Assembly (NCBI GenBank): GCA_029267445.1
Contig: JAJUIU010000032.1
Location: 1-40,971, forward strand
Length of the DNA stretch: 40,971 nt
Origin: Rhodospirillaceae bacterium
GTDB taxonomy: Bacteria; Pseudomonadota; Alphaproteobacteria; Azospirillales; Azospirillaceae
Direction: 5' to 3'
A program made the translations under genes and the position numbers. Of the stretch, positions 9,353-20,337 are shown piece by piece. The stretch's first letter is position 1. Every line of letters begins with the position of its first letter. The notes under the pieces were generated by a model, which saw nothing but the letters and a program-made list of their open reading frames with translations, did not search any database and had not been told where the DNA came from.

Positions 9353-10410
9353 CCACGGCCGACAGCCTGGCCGCGCTCGGCATGCTGCTTCGGGACGGAC
9401 GGGCGCCCGGCCTGACGACGGCGGACTGGCACGCCGTCCTGACGCTGGCCGACGCCGCACTGGTGACGCCGGCTCTCGCCGGCTGCGACCTGCCGCCCGG
9501 CGACATCCGCGTCTATGTCGACGGTGTGCGCGCCCTCACGACCGAGCGCGCCCGCGCCCTGCGGGCGCAACTCGCGGAGCTGGGCGCGGCCTTCGCCGCC
9601 GGGGGCGTGGACCTGATGCTGCTCAAGGGGGCGGCCGCCCTGCCTGACCTGCCGGAGGCGGCGCTGGGCGACCGGCTGTGCGGCGATCTCGACCTGGCCG
9701 TTCGGCCGGACGCTCTGCACGCCGCCCGCCGGGCGCTGTTGGATCTGGGCTACGCGCGCCTGGACGCGGGTGATCCCGACGGCCGGACCGACGGCACCTG
9801 GGCCCGCCCCGCCGACCGCGCCGGGGTGGACCTGCATCTGCGGGTGATGCCCGATGACACGCTGCTGCCAATGGCGGAGCTCTGGCGTACGGCCGAGCCC
9901 GTGCCGGCCGCCGGCGCGTCCACGGTCCGTCCGGACCCGACCCGGCGTCTGGCGCACCTGCTGCTGCATGAGATGGTGCACCACCAGGGCCTGCGGGAGG
10001 GCTGGATCAGTCCGCGCGCCCTGCTGGACCTGCGCGGGCTGATGCCGGCCGGGCCGGACTGGGCCTGGCTCCAGTCCCATTTCCGGGCACGGGGCGTCGG
10101 CCTCGCGTTGACGGTGCCGCTGCTGGCGGCGGACCGCCTGCTGGGCACGGGCTGGCCTCTGGACGCGAGGCCGGATCCGGCGACACGGCTGGTGGCGGCG
10201 CGCATCCTGCGGGGGGGCGACGCCGGGATCATGGGCCGAACCGTTGATATCGCGATCGCCGTCGGCGAGGCGCTGTCGGCCGGCCACCTGCGCCGCTTGT
10301 ACGGGCAAGGGGGCGGGGTGGCCATGCTGCGGCTGCGGCACATTGCGGGCCTTCCCGCCCGTCTCATGACCCGTCACCGCGCGACCCGGCATCCCGCCGT
10401 CCGCCGTTGA
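9349..10410 (+). CDS. Nucleotidyltransferase-fold protein (NTP_transf_5-like)
   Basis: A 353-residue protein with the minimal nucleotidyltransferase core: the helix-leading motif LLKGAA (91-96) followed by GDLDLAV (112-118) with the two metal-binding aspartates, then DLHLRV as the third acidic strand. A helical C-terminal half with HLLLHEMVHHQG follows. This family is regularly encoded next to HprK-related kinases, in lasso-peptide loci and in exopolysaccharide loci. The GTG start at 9349 overlaps the kinase stop codon. The gene converges on a small peptide gene with a shared hairpin between them. The transferred group and target are not known. Confidence 0.82.
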   Translation: MTTADSLAALGMLLRDGRAPGLTTADWHAVLTLADAALVTPALAGCDLPPGDIRVYVDGVRALTTERARALRAQLAELGAAFAAGGVDLMLLKGAAALPDLPEAALGDRLCGDLDLAVRPDALHAARRALLDLGYARLDAGDPDGRTDGTWARPADRAGVDLHLRVMPDDTLLPMAELWRTAEPVPAAGASTVRPDPTRRLAHLLLHEMVHHQGLREGWISPRALLDLRGLMPAGPDWAWLQSHFRARGVGLALTVPLLAADRLLGTGWPLDARPDPATRLVAARILRGGDAGIMGRTVDIAIAVGEALSAGHLRRLYGQGGGVAMLRLRHIAGLPARLMTRHRATRHPAVRR

Positions 10411-10428
10411 GCCGCACATCGACCCTTC

Positions 10429-10453
10429 AGGGCGCGGCGGCCGTCCGCGCCCT
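10429..10453. terminator. Bidirectional hairpin between convergent genes
   Basis: A perfect 9-bp stem (AGGGCGCGG / CCGCGCCCT) with a 7-base loop lies between the ends of the nucleotidyltransferase gene and the convergent small peptide gene. A TCGGTTTTC stretch follows on the plus strand after about a dozen bases. It probably ends transcription from the plus side and may serve both. Confidence 0.55.
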
Positions 10454-10473
10454 GTCGGATCGTCGGTTTTCTG

Positions 10474-10692
10474 TCACTTCTTCCTAGGCTTCCGCGGCTT
10501 CCGCGGTTTCTTGAGCGGCTTGCCCGTGTACGACCCCGCATGGGCGAAGGCCCGGTTGGTGGTCGACATCAGGATGGCCATCGCCGGCGGTGCGGTAAGG
10601 GCCAGTTTTCCCGCCTTGGTCAGGAACTCGCGACGCTCAGGCGACGGGCCCGCGCCGTCATCTGTCACAGTGTCGTTCTCGGACTGGTTCAT
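10474..10692 (-). CDS. Small twin-arginine-like peptide with Lys/Arg/Pro tail
   Basis: Encodes 72 residues. An acidic N-terminus (MNQSENDTVTDDG) leads into ERREFLTKAGKLALTAPPAM (19-38), a twin-arginine-type signal core, then MAILMSTTNRAFA ending in an AFA-H signal-peptidase-like site. The tail is very basic and repetitive (KKPRKPRKPRKK, 61-72). A GGAGAGGGAG ribosome site sits five to six bases before the ATG, so this start is preferred over in-frame codons upstream. It is convergent with the HprK-like/nucleotidyltransferase pair. Small peptides with such a K-A-G-K-x-A-x-T-A-P core recur near these enzymes in Proteobacteria (from memory, not searched), so it may be their substrate or partner. 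The mature part would be only about 22 residues. Confidence 0.72.
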   Translation of the reverse strand: MNQSENDTVTDDGAGPSPERREFLTKAGKLALTAPPAMAILMSTTNRAFAHAGSYTGKPLKKPRKPRKPRKK

Positions 10693-10869
10693 GATCGACT
10701 CCCTCTCCGGCACCCGGGCATTCCGTGTGCCGGGAAGGAAGTCTACGCGCGGGCGAACGCCAGTCCCGTTCGCGGAAGGCGGGCCGGTGCGCAATTGCTC
10801 GGTAAACCCCCGCTCCGTTGGGGTCGGCCCTTCCGGAGCCGACCCGACCGAAATCGCGGAGATGGACGG

Positions 10870-12000
<1,131 letters not shown>

Positions 12001-14846: not shown

Positions 14847-14861
14847 GGGTCACTCCGCCGC
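14835..14861. terminator. Hairpin spanning the stop codons of two convergent genes
   Basis: A perfect 10-bp stem (GCGGCGGAGT / ACTCCGCCGC) with loop AGGGGTC covers the phhA stop and the stop of the convergent exporter gene. With only three bases between the genes, the terminator-like structure is built from coding sequence of both. No clear T-run follows on either strand. Confidence 0.5.
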
Positions 14862-16952
14862 CACGGTCCCGGCGGCGGTCTCGGCGGCGATCAGCTTGCC
14901 GCCCATCAGGACCAGCACGCGGTCGGCCGCCGCGATCGTCTCCGGCCGGTGGGCGATGACGATGCGGGTGATGCCCAGCCGCGCGATGTGGGCGTTCACC
15001 TCGCGCTCCTTGGCGACATCCAGGTGGCTGGTGCCCTCGTCCATGAACAGCAGCCGCGGCTTGCGGTAGAGCGCCCGGGCCAGCAGGACGCGCTGCCGCT
15101 GCCCGCCGGACAGGGCCGCCCCCATGTCGCCGACCAGGGTGTTGTAGTTCATGGGCATGGCCATGACCTCCTGGTCGATGCCGGCCAGCGCCGCGCACTG
15201 GCGCATCCACATCAGGTCGGGTGCTGCGTCGAAGAATGTGATGTTTTCAGCCAGGCTGCCGGACAGAAGCTGGTCGTCCTGCATCACCACGCCGACCTGG
15301 GCGCGGAAGGCGGTGGGGCCGACATGGTCCAGCGGCACCCCGTCCACCAGCACCTCCCCCTCGCGCGGGCGGAACAGGCCCAGCATGATCTTGAGCAGCG
15401 TGGTCTTGCCACCGCCCGACGGGCCGGTGATGGCGACGAACTCGCCCGGCGCGATCTCGAGATCGACGCCCGCCAGCACGTCTGGCTCCGTCTCGGCGTA
15501 GCGGTAGGACACGCCGCGCAGCGCGATGCCGCCCTTCAGCTCGTGCTGGACCAGCGGCAGGGTGTCCAGCGTGCTCTCCAGGCCCTTCTCCCGCTCCGCC
15601 AGCGCGATGTCGGCGATGCGGTCCAGGTGCAGGTCCAGCATCCGGTACTCGATCGCCGTCTCCAGCAGCTTGGTCGCCTTGTCCAGGAACTGCTGCTTGT
15701 AGCTCATGAAGGCGAACAGCATACCCACGGTCATATGACCTTCCATGGCGAGGCGCGCGCCGACATAGACGACCAGGATGTTCTCCGCCCCGTACAGCAG
15801 GTCGTTCACCGTCTTGAAGCTGATCTGCAGGCGGCCCAGGCGCACCGTGCGCTGGACCGTGTCGGCAAAGCGGTTCTGCCACACCCCCTCGCGGTCGGTC
15901 TCGCGGCCGAAGGTCTTGATCGTCTGGATGGCGCGGGCGGTCTCGATGAAGCTGGACTGCTCCTTCGCCATCGCTTCGATCTGCTCCTCCTGGCGCTGGC
16001 GCAGCACGCGGTAGGCGGCGACGCGGATCGCGGCATAGAGGACAAGCGCCACCAGCACGATGGCCGCCAGCAGGGGGGAGTAGATGAAGATCATGACCAG
16101 GGTCAGGATCGCCATCAGACCGTCCACCACGGCGGCGACCAGCCCCTCCGCGATCAGGTCGCGGATCGGCCGGGTGGACCCGAAGCGGGAGACGAGGTCG
16201 CCGATGTGCCGCTTCTCGAACCAGTCCAGCGGCAGGCGCACCATATGGTGGAACAGGTTCGCCACCATCTGGAAGCCGATCAGGTTGCCCAGGATCAGCA
16301 GCACCTGGGCGCGCAGCCAGTCCGACGCGACCCGGATGGCGGTCAGCAGGCCGAACCCGACGGCAAGTGCGATCAGCAGCCCGCCGTCGCCCTTCATCAC
16401 CGCCTCGTCCACCGCCAGCTGCATGTAGAACGGACCGGCCAGCAGCACGATCTGTAGCACCACGGACAGGACCAGCGCCTGCAGCAGGGCGCGCTTCATC
16501 CCGTCCACCCGGCCGAACAGGGCCGTCAGGGGCAGCCGCGCGCGCTCCTTCTTCCTCTCGAACGTGCTGGTCGGCGTCAGCTCCAGGGCCACACCGGTGA
16601 AATGCTGGCCCAGCTCCGCCATGGTCATGCGGACCACACCCTTGGCGGGATCGTGGATCGTGACCTTGTCGCCGCGCACCTGCGCCAGCACGACGAAATG
16701 GTTCATGTCCCAGTGCAGTACGGCCGGCAGCTTCAGGTCCTTCAGATGCGCCGGCTCAAGCCGAAGGCCACGCCCCGTCAGCCCCACCCGCTGCGCCATC
16801 AGCAGGATGGACTTCATGGTGGTGCCCTTCAGCGACACCGGGAAGCGCCGGCGCAGCGTGCCCAGATCCACCTCGTGCCCATGGTGCGCCATCACCATGG
16901 CGAGGCAGGCGAGTCCGCATTCGGCGGCTTCGGATTGCATCAACCCTGCCAT
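14850..16952 (-). CDS. Peptidase-containing ABC exporter (C39 bacteriocin-processing transporter)
   Basis: Cleaves double-glycine leader peptides and exports the cores across the inner membrane. The 700-residue chain holds a C39 papain-like peptidase (about 1-135) with Gln6, catalytic Cys12 (AECGLACLAMV), His85 (MNHFVVL) and Asp101 (IHDPAKG), all intact. The six-helix membrane domain follows (about 155-440), then an ATPase with Walker A GPSGGGKTT (around 510), signature LSGGQRQRV and Walker B LLFMDEGTS. It is therefore fully equipped, unlike C39-like degenerate forms in RTX transporters. GGGGAG lies eight bases before the ATG. It is last in a minus-strand set with an HlyD-type partner and GG-leader precursors. 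Confidence 0.95.
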   Translation of the reverse strand: MAGLMQSEAAECGLACLAMVMAHHGHEVDLGTLRRRFPVSLKGTTMKSILLMAQRVGLTGRGLRLEPAHLKDLKLPAVLHWDMNHFVVLAQVRGDKVTIHDPAKGVVRMTMAELGQHFTGVALELTPTSTFERKKERARLPLTALFGRVDGMKRALLQALVLSVVLQIVLLAGPFYMQLAVDEAVMKGDGGLLIALAVGFGLLTAIRVASDWLRAQVLLILGNLIGFQMVANLFHHMVRLPLDWFEKRHIGDLVSRFGSTRPIRDLIAEGLVAAVVDGLMAILTLVMIFIYSPLLAAIVLVALVLYAAIRVAAYRVLRQRQEEQIEAMAKEQSSFIETARAIQTIKTFGRETDREGVWQNRFADTVQRTVRLGRLQISFKTVNDLLYGAENILVVYVGARLAMEGHMTVGMLFAFMSYKQQFLDKATKLLETAIEYRMLDLHLDRIADIALAEREKGLESTLDTLPLVQHELKGGIALRGVSYRYAETEPDVLAGVDLEIAPGEFVAITGPSGGGKTTLLKIMLGLFRPREGEVLVDGVPLDHVGPTAFRAQVGVVMQDDQLLSGSLAENITFFDAAPDLMWMRQCAALAGIDQEVMAMPMNYNTLVGDMGAALSGGQRQRVLLARALYRKPRLLFMDEGTSHLDVAKEREVNAHIARLGITRIVIAHRPETIAAADRVLVLMGGKLIAAETAAGTVAAE

Positions 16953-17001: not shown

Positions 17002-17751
17002 TCAAGCGATATGGCAAGATTTGTGATGTAGTATGATTACATACTCAAACGTATTTATTAGCCCATGCAGTAGGGTGGGAGTAAGTATGGAACCAGTTAG
17101 CCAACGCAAAATACCAAAGATCAGCCCGGTTGCAGCCAACGCCAGAAAATTCTCATTATTGATATGAAGTGCGGCAAATATAACAGTTGTTGTAATAATT
17201 GCAAAAAAAGGTCCAATCTCTTTGTTGATATATTCAAACATAATCCCCCTGAAAAGAATTTCCTCAAGCGTCGGGCCTATGACGCACAAAGAGAAAAAAC
17301 CAAGAATCACAAGTATCATAAAGAACTGTCGACCGTCTGCAGAAACTCCACAAGCTTCTTCGTAAAGAGAAGCTTCAGACACAAATGAATGCAGTAGCGC
17401 TACTTGGAAGAATAGCGTGGTCGCTGCAAGAGCAAAAATTGGATAACGCGAGTACCATCTTGTTGGCACGGAAAACATTTGTCTCAAGCTATCGACTGAT
17501 TTAGATTTATACAGAATGATGTAAATAGTCAATAGGAGGCATGAGAAATCCATTATTATTTTTGAAAGTATCTTGCTTGCAGATGGCCCATGATCAGGTT
17601 GGTTCTCGACGGATTGCATTGCATGACCAATCAAGGTCTGTCCAAAAAGATAGACTCCTAAAATCACGAGAACAAGGAAAAACCTCCTATCGTCAGTGTG
17701 GTCGTTTTCATGTCTAATGTGGTATTTGGTAGGCAAACTATTTTGCTCCAT
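17002..17751 (-). CDS. CPBP (Abi/CAAX-like) intramembrane protease family protein, candidate bacteriocin immunity protein
   Basis: A 249-residue multi-helix membrane protein with the CPBP motifs: Glu163-Glu164 and Arg168 (TLEEILFRG), His196 (FAALHI), His229 and Asn233 (LLHGLIN). Members of this family are often encoded with bacteriocin genes and some act as immunity proteins; others are proteases that process prenylated or secreted proteins. The start at 17751 is chosen because AGGAAA precedes it by about nine bases; a TTG 22 codons upstream is possible. The gene is clearly richer in A+T than its neighbours. It lies between the GG-leader peptide genes and the exporter gene, 49 bases ahead of the latter. 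Immunity is inferred from context. Confidence 0.85.
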   Translation of the reverse strand: MEQNSLPTKYHIRHENDHTDDRRFFLVLVILGVYLFGQTLIGHAMQSVENQPDHGPSASKILSKIIMDFSCLLLTIYIILYKSKSVDSLRQMFSVPTRWYSRYPIFALAATTLFFQVALLHSFVSEASLYEEACGVSADGRQFFMILVILGFFSLCVIGPTLEEILFRGIMFEYINKEIGPFFAIITTTVIFAALHINNENFLALAATGLIFGILRWLTGSILTPTLLHGLINTFEYVIILHHKSCHIA

Positions 17752-17890
17752 TGTTGAATTTCCTGTTTGGTTATTGGTTGCATATTCATCACGAAAAATT
17801 TCATCGGTCGCCGACAACGTGGAAACCGACGGTGCGGACGTGCCCGAAAATCCAGTGAGTCAAGTGTGATATGCTTGAGAAAGAGTAATG

Positions 17891-17932: not shown

Positions 17933-18172
17933 TCAGGGCACGCCGAGATCTCCCATGCTTATGTTTGGCGCAGGGGAACTGCCATCAATGCCCAGAACGC
18001 TCCGCATCCCCCAGTCAACCAATTGGGCTATGCCAATTATTTCTGCCACCTCTCGGATAAAGGTTCCCATGCCTCCACCCGCGACCATTTCCAGATCATC
18101 AAGTTCCAGAACTGAGACATCGGTGAAAGGCAACCGAAGGTCGCCATCAATAGCAACAACGTACGAGTTCAT
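17933..18172 (-). CDS. Double-glycine-leader peptide precursor 1 (putative bacteriocin)
   Basis: A 79-residue precursor. Residues 1-33 form a leader ending LELDDLEMVAGG, a textbook C39-processed double-glycine leader (hydrophobic/acidic L-x-x-D-x-L-E-x-V-x-G-G). The predicted 46-residue core begins GMGTFIREVAEIIG, is amphipathic and Gly/Ile-rich, has no cysteine, and ends NISMGDLGVP. A GGAG ribosome site lies about nine bases before the ATG. It is encoded with a second precursor sharing the core start and tail, a CPBP protein and a C39 exporter. Bacteriocin activity is inferred; a signalling role is also possible. The clear leader and matching peptidase make the secretion route the safest part of the call. 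Confidence 0.85.
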   Translation of the reverse strand: MNSYVVAIDGDLRLPFTDVSVLELDDLEMVAGGGMGTFIREVAEIIGIAQLVDWGMRSVLGIDGSSPAPNISMGDLGVP

Positions 18173-18328: not shown

Positions 18329-18535
18329 TTAGGCGACTCCAAGATCGCCCATGTTTACGTCCGGGGTCCCGACGGGGCGATCACACGAGATCTCCGACAT
18401 GATCTGGCCAATGATAATGATGACGATCTCGCGAGCGAATCCGCCAGAAATCATCTCAAGGTCGTCCGACGAAAGCTGCGCTTTGCTTCCCATAGGCCCA
18501 GGAAGTTCCTTGAACAATTCTAAGTTCACTGTCAT
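18329..18535 (-). CDS. Double-glycine-leader peptide precursor 2 (putative bacteriocin)
   Basis: A 68-residue precursor. The leader (1-32) ends LSSDDLEMISGG. The predicted 36-residue core starts FAREIVIIIIGQIMSEISC, a very hydrophobic segment with the only cysteine, and ends DVNMGDLGVA. A GAGGA ribosome site lies about nine bases before the ATG. Compared with precursor 1, the core shares F-x-R-E-(V/I) near its start and MGDLGV plus one residue at its end, while the middle differs in length and sequence. The genes look like diverged duplicates that may act as a two-component pair. Function beyond export is inferred. Confidence 0.83.
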   Translation of the reverse strand: MTVNLELFKELPGPMGSKAQLSSDDLEMISGGFAREIVIIIIGQIMSEISCDRPVGTPDVNMGDLGVA

Positions 18536-18599
18536 TCTGCGTCGTCCTCACTGTCTGTGGAGCCAATCGGTGTTCCACCACGGCTAGGCTCCTCGGGGG

Positions 18600-18624
18600 C
18601 CCCGCCGGCCACGTGCCGGCGGGG
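18600..18624 (-). terminator. GC-rich hairpin upstream of precursor 2
   Basis: A perfect 10-bp stem (CCCCGCCGGC / GCCGGCGGGG) with loop CACGT lies about 65 bases upstream of the precursor 2 start and about 130 bases after the small peptide gene at 18756-18905. There is no T-run on the minus strand, so it may be a partial terminator, an RNA-processing site or a stability element in the 5' leader of the two precursor genes. Confidence 0.45.
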
Positions 18625-18629
18625 GTTCC

Positions 18630-18648
18630 CGCCCGGGAATACCGGGCG
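18630..18648 (-). terminator. Second hairpin in the leader of the precursor genes
   Basis: CGCCCGG and CCGGGCG form a perfect 7-bp stem around loop GAATA, six bases from the larger hairpin. Flanking GTTCC and GGAAC could extend pairing across an AAA bulge. The two hairpins together separate the hlyD side of the operon from the peptide cassette. Confidence 0.4.
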
Positions 18649-18703
18649 AAAGGAACAAACGAATATCCTTCTTGATTGAATCTATCCTTCGCGTCCGTCG
18701 TGG

Positions 18704-18721
18704 ACCGGTCGCGCGACCGGT
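18704..18721. promoter_or_regulatory. Perfect 18-bp palindrome
   Basis: ACCGGTCGCGCGACCGGT reads identically on both strands. It lies 34 bases beyond the stop of the small peptide gene on the minus strand. It could form a 7-bp hairpin with a GCGC loop in RNA or act as a binding site for a dimeric regulator controlling the two downstream precursor genes. No further evidence distinguishes these. Confidence 0.4.
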
Positions 18722-18755
18722 GGGCCGATCCCGCCGGCCGCGCGGTTCGGCTTGG

Positions 18756-18905
18756 TTACGACGGGCGCGTCTGCTCGCGCCGGAGCCACTCCGACCAGAA
18801 GTCGTCTTGGAACAGCAGGGTTGGGCAGGGCGTCCACAAGGCACCGGAGGCCCGCTCCAGATCAGTCTGTTCGACTTCGCGGTCGTTGAGCAAATCGTCC
18901 GACAT
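18756..18905 (-). CDS. Small peptide gene with degenerate GG-type leader, between hlyD and the precursor genes
   Basis: A 49-residue product, MSDDLLNDREVEQTDLERAS then GALWTPCPTLLFQDDFWSEW, ending in LRREQTRPS. Residues 1-22 resemble an acidic export leader ending DLERASGA, where the usual GG is GA. A core of about 27 residues would contain three Trp, one Cys and a mixed-charge tail. A strong AAGGGAAGG ribosome site precedes the ATG. It is in the minus-strand operon directly after hlyD. It could be a third exported peptide, a chaperone-like helper or a regulator. A different frame through the same DNA is longer but has random-looking Arg/Pro-rich composition. Confidence 0.6.
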   Translation of the reverse strand: MSDDLLNDREVEQTDLERASGALWTPCPTLLFQDDFWSEWLRREQTRPS

Positions 18906-19098
18906 TCTTCACCTTCCCTTACGTTGGTGATTTTTGGGGCGTTCGCGTGCCCGGTCAGTCGCCCATTCGTGAGGATGGCGTCGTGGACGGGCAGGAACCT
19001 GGGTCGACCGGCGTCCCTGTGGGTCGCGCGGCGATCTCTGAATTCCGGGATCGGGGTGGTCATGCCACTGATCGGGGCGCGGATGAGACTGTCCAGCA

Positions 19099-20337
19099 TC
19101 ACATCCGCCCCCTGGCGCTCAGCAGCGGCTCCAGCAGCCATTCCAGCAGCGTGCGCTCCTCAAGCACGATGTCGGCGCGCAGCGTCATGTCCGGCTGCAG
19201 GCCGACATCACGGCCGAAGGCGTTCACGGTCGGCCGGTCCAGCGCCACGGTGACGCGGTAGGCCGGTTCCGGCAGACGGATCGGCCCCAGCGCCTCCTCC
19301 GGGGTCAGCATGGTTTCCGACACCGTCTCCACCGTGCCGCCATGGGCTCCGAAGCGCTGGAAGGGGAAGGCGTCGTACATCAGGCGCACGCGCTGCCCCG
19401 GCTCGACGAAGCCGATGGCCCGGCTGGGCACGAACAGTTCCGCCCGCAGGGCCGCATCCTCCGGCACGATGGACAGGACGGGCTTGGTCGGGTCGATCCG
19501 CTGGCCCGGCTGCGCCTGGATGCCGGTGACGCGGCCTGGGGAGGGGGCCCGTACGGTGACCGCACCCTGGGCCGACACCTCCACCTTGCGCTGAGCCAGC
19601 TCAGCCTCCGTCGCGCGCAGGCGGGCCAGGCGGTCGGCACTCTCCGCCGGCGCCTGGGCGCGCTGGATCTCCGTCTGCCGGCGTTCCTGCGTCAGGGCGG
19701 CGGTCCGCTGGTCGATGGCGGCCAGGGACTGGCGCTGGCCAAGCCACGCCTCCTCCCGCGCCCGGTACTCCGCCTCGGAGACGAACCCTTTGGCGCGCAG
19801 GTCGGACAGCGCCTTCAGCCGCTCCTCCGACACGGTGACCCGCTCGGCCTGGAGGCTACGCTGGACGGACAGCGACTCCAGCTCGGCCGTCAGGCCCCTC
19901 AGGCGGGAGTCCAGCCGGTCGGCCTCGCTGACCGCGCGGGCCTCCTCCGCCGCGATCTGCTCCCGCAGAAGCTGGGCTTGGCGGAGCAGCCCGTCGCGCA
20001 GCACGGCGTCCAGGGTGCCGCCGCCCTCCAGCCCCTGGCGCGTGTCCAGGGTGAACAGCGCTTCCCCCGCCGTGACCGCGTCGCCGGGGCCGACGGCCAG
20101 CGCCGCCAGGGTGCCAGCACGGGGCGGAACGACCCGCACGGTTCCGGTGGCCGGCGCCAGGAATCCGACGGCCGTCTCCTTCCGCGCGTAACCGGCGGTG
20201 GCCGCAAAGCCCAACGCAACCGCCAGTGAACCGGCCAGGAAGGCCGTCACCACCGGCCAGCCCATTCCCGTCAGCCCCATCGGCAGGGTGACCTGCTGGC
20301 CGGCGAGCGCTGGTATCTGGCGGAAGGCGATGGGCAT
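19099..20337 (-). CDS. HlyD/CvaA-family periplasmic adaptor (membrane fusion protein)
   Basis: Links an inner-membrane ABC exporter to a TolC-like outer-membrane channel. The 412-residue protein has a short cytoplasmic N-terminus, one membrane helix (about 27-50), a lipoyl-like half-motif (FLAPATGTVRVVPPRAGTLAAL), a long coiled-coil hairpin (about 110-245, rich in Leu/Glu/Arg/Gln), the second lipoyl half (TVRAPSPGRVTGIQAQPGQRI) and a beta-barrel C-terminal domain with GQRVRLMYDAFPFQRFG, typical of CvaA-like bacteriocin exporters. AAAGGA lies five to six bases before the ATG. It is the first gene of the operon, separated from its exporter partner by the peptide and CPBP genes. No TolC gene is in the window. 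Confidence 0.93.
   Translation of the reverse strand: MPIAFRQIPALAGQQVTLPMGLTGMGWPVVTAFLAGSLAVALGFAATAGYARKETAVGFLAPATGTVRVVPPRAGTLAALAVGPGDAVTAGEALFTLDTRQGLEGGGTLDAVLRDGLLRQAQLLREQIAAEEARAVSEADRLDSRLRGLTAELESLSVQRSLQAERVTVSEERLKALSDLRAKGFVSEAEYRAREEAWLGQRQSLAAIDQRTAALTQERRQTEIQRAQAPAESADRLARLRATEAELAQRKVEVSAQGAVTVRAPSPGRVTGIQAQPGQRIDPTKPVLSIVPEDAALRAELFVPSRAIGFVEPGQRVRLMYDAFPFQRFGAHGGTVETVSETMLTPEEALGPIRLPEPAYRVTVALDRPTVNAFGRDVGLQPDMTLRADIVLEERTLLEWLLEPLLSARGRM

Follow-up and report, generated by a model that had tools for sequence, protein, structure and literature searches.

A 49-residue peptide gene beside hlyD as a possible third, GA-leader cargo of an alphaproteobacterial C39/ABC exporter locus

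In the class II bacteriocin loci of Gram-positive bacteria, short inducing peptides share the exporter of the bacteriocin, and they are usually sensed by a peptide-sensing kinase rather than a PAS hybrid. The leaders of peptides handled by C39/PCAT exporters carry a hydrophobic residue (L, I, V, M or A) at positions -12, -7 and -4, according to the accessible part of PMC10885120. The peptidase LahT is reported, in the accessible text of PMC6363468, to cleave after GA and GS in the precursors of lacticin 481 and haloduracin beta. Class II microcins are described with either a GG or a GA cut site in the available portions of PMC9746304 and PMC10233263, and the leaders of Cdz-like peptides end in G[G/A/S] in that of PMC5380434.

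The locus described here belongs to a Rhodospirillaceae bacterium (assembly GCA_029267445.1), and the window analysed is the whole stretch of 40,971 nt of contig JAJUIU010000032.1. On the minus strand, the genes are ordered hlyD, pep49, GG68, GG79, CPBP and C39/ABC exporter (Table 1). A response regulator and a PAS hybrid kinase are located just upstream of the cluster on the same strand. Among solved structures, the C39 domain of the exporter, which spans roughly its first 130 residues, is closest to 6mpz (E 1.9e-25), which we take to be LahT and whose entry title names the double-glycine protease domain of an AMS/PCAT transporter. The ECG, NHF and DPAKG segments, presumably catalytic, are kept when the domain is aligned with 6mpz; as far as its sequence indicates, the C39 domain near pep49 is apparently active. 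Only one other C39-domain match is present in the genome, at a separate locus (C36), and no convincing leader peptide was found near this second locus (L137).

GG68 and GG79 share 39% identity (E 1.9e-08). Both end in an MGDLGV tail despite their different cores, which suggests a common C-terminal function. GG68 also has a weak NCBIfam class IIb bacteriocin match, which lies below the cut-off. Given the paralogy and the common C-terminus, the locus looks like a putative two-peptide bacteriocin system. The CPBP protease is a candidate immunity protein, and no immunity gene specific to pep49 was identified. A scan of the genes for the exporter, HlyD, CPBP, the response regulator, the kinase and a Clp-like protein revealed no RiPP modification enzyme.

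Table 1. Features of the exporter locus, with positions in the window.
Feature	Position	Strand	Description
Peptidase C39 - ABC exporter (PCAT)	14850..16952	minus	PF03412, PF00664, PF00005
CPBP (Rce1-like) intramembrane protease	17002..17817	minus	PF02517, E 1.7e-19
GG79	17933..18172	minus	79-aa paralog of GG68, leader LELDDLEMVAGG
GG68	18329..18535	minus	68-aa peptide, canonical double-glycine leader LSSDDLEMISGG
GC-rich hairpin-forming stretch between pep49 and GG68	18540..18758	minus	several hairpins, no U-tract
pep49	18756..18905	minus	49-aa ATG ORF plus stop; predicted leader 1-22 ending Gly-Ala; predicted core 23-49
pep49 ribosome-binding region	18906..18923	minus	AGGTGA at -9 to -4
HlyD membrane-fusion protein	19099..20337	minus	PF13437, E 8.1e-20; TIGR01843 below cut-off

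An earlier note on this DNA had proposed an overlooked 49-residue peptide gene with a strong ribosome site directly following hlyD. The ATG frame is indeed read in the sequence. It is the next gene after hlyD, with a gap of 193 nt and no overlap between the hlyD stop and its start, so that "directly" applies to gene order alone; 220 nt separate its end from GG68. The start is preceded by CGTAAGGGAAGGTGAAGA-ATG. The duplex of this region with the 16S tail (-13.4 kcal/mol) is stronger than those of all 22 window genes tested (-11.4 to -1.5), and a Shine-Dalgarno (SD) site of this strength precedes seven of the 1055 ATGs in the window, pep49 included. The GC content at the three codon positions (0.63/0.47/0.84) follows the same order as in the 24 large genes of the window. 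The signal is frame-specific, the codon score being clearly poorer in each of the five other frames. By the same score, pep49 ranks first of 34 intergenic ORFs of 35-80 aa and fourth of 144 once ORFs overlapping genes are added. The further remark that the gene is too short for standard gene callers is doubtful, since the default minimum of Prodigal is 90 nt against 150 nt for pep49.

An ORF of this kind could also have arisen by chance in a GC-rich intergenic region. An ATG ORF of at least 45 aa occurs in 3655 of 5000 dinucleotide shuffles of the 563-nt gap, so the length of pep49 alone is uninformative, and the absence of homologs (see below) fits a chance origin as well. With a crude SD added, the count is 835/5000. 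An ORF, an SD and the codon-position GC pattern together were obtained in 0/5000 shuffles, at thresholds fixed only after pep49 was known, and this combination argues against chance, as does the leader discussed next. We regard a chance ORF as very unlikely. By contrast, pep49 is in all likelihood translated, and it is probably a genuine small gene.

The encoded protein reads MSDDLLNDREVEQTDLERASGA / LWTPCPTLLFQDDFWSEWLRREQTRPS, with a slash at the predicted cut. The N-terminus through Gly-Ala comprises 22 aa and is acidic, with a charge of about -5.5 at pH 7, while the predicted core of 27 aa (3409 Da if unmodified) contains three Trp, one Cys and no Gly. The acidic leader-like N-terminus and the Trp-rich, single-Cys tail of the earlier note are thus both borne out. 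The anchor residues are V(-12), D(-8), L(-7), A(-4), G(-2) and A(-1). V, L and A agree with the hydrophobic positions of C39/PCAT leaders, and Gly-Ala (residues 21-22) falls within the GG/GA/GS range of cut sites. The note's statement that some C39 peptidases tolerate GA sites is documented in published work, with the GA and GS cleavages of LahT cited above.

A regular expression requiring hydrophobic residues at -12, -7 and -4, an acidic residue at -8 and G[GAS], composed with pep49 already known, matches three of the 267 small ORFs in the window, namely pep49, GG68 and GG79. It is matched by only 4 of 50,000 residue shuffles, which again speaks against a chance ORF. In the related loci described below, 10 of 12,033 ORFs match after removal of those with a listed leader, and several of these ten are real leaders by eye. 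If the rule is loosened to accept Ala at each of the three anchors and any residue at -8, it matches 4/267 window ORFs and 32/50,000 shuffles.

Scoring against collected leaders gives a graded picture. In a strict position matrix of 19 leaders, typed from the related loci read and containing one GA and one GS leader, pep49 reaches 7.9 bits versus at least 19.1 for every leave-one-out leader. This weak score is reached by 9698 of 100,000 shuffles and ranks fifth of 229 window ORFs. An HMM was built from 66 typed leaders (62 GG, 3 GA, 1 GS), comprising matrix hits of at least about 14 bits ending in G[GAS] together with the L044 leaders; weaker hits, e.g., the GA leader at 4554 in L050, and the window's own leaders were left out. 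With this model, pep49 is third of the 267 small window ORFs, behind GG68 and GG79, at 4.1 bits (E 1.6), the next ORF scoring 1.8 bits. As good a score was obtained for 30 of 5000 shuffles (4364 sequences scored, the real one included). By similarity to the window's own two leaders, pep49 is third of 229 ORFs, a level reached by 38 of 20,000 shuffles by BLOSUM score and by 1350 of 20,000 by identity count. The N-terminus obeys the published C39 anchor rules and scores weakly in the strict matrix.

A leader weaker than typical in both the strict matrix and the HMM might also belong to a decaying or truncated former cargo gene, now unused and losing its leader through GG to GA and V to A at -4. 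The neighbouring cargo genes GG68 and GG79 have a lower GC content (0.53), which would suit a more recent module joined on downstream and is consistent with such a history, and degenerate cargo-like and HlyD fragments are present in related loci. Decay would, however, not leave an intact frame, an SD above those of the tested genes and gene-like codon positions. We therefore consider a decaying gene quite unlikely.

The predicted core is soluble and mildly acidic and contains an amphipathic segment. Its GRAVY is -0.83, compared with +0.67 and +0.50 for the cores of the other two cargos. With such a core, a toxin that inserts into membranes is less likely than a peptide with an accessory or signalling role. 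The hydrophilic core, together with the weak strict-matrix score, is also compatible with a pep49 that is translated and not exported, acting as a regulatory or structural small protein or as a hairpin-coupled element that sets the expression of the downstream peptide genes. The strong SD and the coding pattern also suit this explanation. So does the very stable RNA structure located right after the pep49 stop: the stretch folds at -108.3 kcal/mol (z -4.0), and 0 of 200 shuffles were as stable. A REP-like repeat was considered for these hairpins and rejected, as no clear second copy was found in the genome. Against a non-exported product stand the leader rule, obeyed at low chance probability, and the lack of a terminator-like site or an Rfam match at the hairpin stretch and of an unusual codon run in pep49 (by eye). 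Such a product appears unlikely to us.

No trustworthy homolog of pep49 was found in 99 relatives; 56 of them, G000's own match included, gave a hit at E up to 10, and the best matches other than its own had E values of 0.028 to 0.05. Re-alignment of 20 relative loci and examination of the small ORFs of L002, L004, L009 and L010 yielded no convincing in-register leader peptide. Across 385 genomes of the class, the search returned the gene itself and two weak matches (L021, L022), which were rejected by eye, one lying inside a long ORF and one being out of frame with a longer open frame. Across 82 genomes of the family, it returned only itself. In 40 exporter-bearing genomes, drawn from the best 80 of 576 confirmed loci, matches at E up to 1 occurred in 22 (best 0.025), and the small ORFs of the best 80 of 576 related loci gave a best E of 0.14. 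Viral contigs and plasmids contained no match, and no family was found in Pfam, NCBIfam or PHROGs. Comparison with HlyD did not identify pep49 as an HlyD remnant. GG79, an undisputed neighbour, likewise matches only its own genome among the 99 relatives, so the missing homologs of pep49 say little. A limited literature search found no published account of this locus, which may still be reported.

The related loci were taken as the best 80 of 576 confirmed exporter relatives, and the nearest among them by exporter identity are L023, L024, L025 and L027. In each of the four, leader peptides are encoded in the interval from hlyD to the exporter gene. As with pep49 here, hlyD is followed by a GG-leader gene in L023, L024 and L027. 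pep49 itself is absent from all four, and no GA leader lies between hlyD and the exporter in L023-L025. The response regulator and kinase were rejected as conserved partners, as they have no match in L023-L025 and L027. By position, not by tree, the cluster fits an insertion relative to L120 of one family genome (G002), where a phenylalanine hydroxylase gene is followed directly by a GlmS-like gene; that stretch has no hlyD match, and the sole ABC match is distant and lies far away. Fragments of the hlyD 3'-end lie beside cargo genes in L027 (2174-2479), L044 (1408-1575) and L099 (10463-10549), a pattern that might result from recombination at the hlyD end bringing in cargo modules.

Around the best 80 of 576 exporter loci, 53 short-core candidates were collected (core 6-32 aa, fair SD) with a loose pattern that admits chance hits, and they include GA leaders of L049 and L050. 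Leader peptides with short cores are thus common near these exporters. GA leaders occur in L044, L049, L050 and L078 among these loci, and in L044 the GA leader stands beside GG paralogs. Pseudoalteromonas locus L050 has GA/GS peptide sites at 11106-11619 and 10765-10860, and a further site lies at 10868-10966 in L048. Four near-identical GA-leader peptides stand in tandem in L050, their Trp-containing core being GGSVYGKVTKDGWEIGF..., and both Pseudoalteromonas loci have a single-Cys peptide (GREYDDPCDPELFFK) whose leader ends in GA or GS, GA being the form in L050. In ten Microvirga loci (L026, L028 with two, L029, L031, L032, L033, L034, L035, L037 and L039), a tiny GG-leader peptide is encoded immediately beyond the exporter gene and in the opposite orientation (about 10190-10650, minus strand), with a core of 6-16 residues on RRIIVY or close variants and a strong SD where scored. 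Their appearance is that of conserved short peptides that are secreted, perhaps as signals. Judging by the GA-leader and short-core peptides of the related loci, neither a GA leader nor a short hydrophilic core is out of character for this exporter group.

Taken together, we slightly favour pep49 as a genuine gene and a third, GA-leader cargo of the local C39/ABC-HlyD exporter. In this model, the ribosome would make the 49-residue precursor, the C39 domain would read the leader via V(-12), L(-7) and A(-4) and cut after Gly-Ala, and the exporter would secrete a 27-residue hydrophilic, Trp-containing peptide along with the two larger hydrophobic GG peptides. The product would have an accessory role in a locus for bacteriocin-type antagonism. 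The third cargo of a different kind that the earlier note suggested holds with regard to kind, as the core is unlike the other two in GRAVY and related loci hold short GA-leader peptides, whereas cleavage and export are predictions.

If true, alphaproteobacterial bacteriocin-type exporter loci hold cargo beyond the obvious GG peptides, and the mining of such loci should include GA leaders on short hydrophilic peptides. Exported together with the two-peptide pair, the short peptide might serve either as its helper or as a signal. A more far-reaching idea, which we put forward as a long shot, is that pep49 is one of a wider, so far unrecognised set of peptides that are short (6-30 residues) and hydrophilic, often have a GA leader, share C39 exporters with larger bacteriocins of Gram-negative bacteria, and act as secreted signals instead of toxins. 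The RRIIVY-type peptides of Microvirga and the tandem GA peptides of L050 would be further examples, and the neighbouring response regulator and PAS hybrid kinase a possible sensor.

Compared with known systems, pep49 differs from class II microcins in its short, hydrophilic core of 27 aa; microcin cores are larger, and a hydrophilic core is atypical for class II bacteriocins. It resembles class II microcins and other C39 (PCAT) substrates as a small precursor encoded beside a PCAT and HlyD, in its anchors at -12, -7 and -4, and in a GA site of the kind accepted there, according to the accessible parts of the sources. The locus as a whole is similar to CdzABCDI of Caulobacter in combining alphaproteobacterial type I export, two adjacent small leader peptides and a membrane protein, and the Gly-Ala end of the pep49 leader falls within the G[G/A/S] of Cdz-like peptides. 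With 49 aa versus the 60-151 given for Cdz-like peptides in the accessible part of PMC5380434, and with a core that, having no Gly, forms no zipper, unlike the Cdz-like glycine-zipper toxins, pep49 falls outside that group in both size and core. With Gram-positive inducing-peptide loci, this locus has in common a short leader peptide that would use the bacteriocin exporter, and a response regulator and kinase just upstream; in contrast to those loci, the kinase here is a PAS hybrid.
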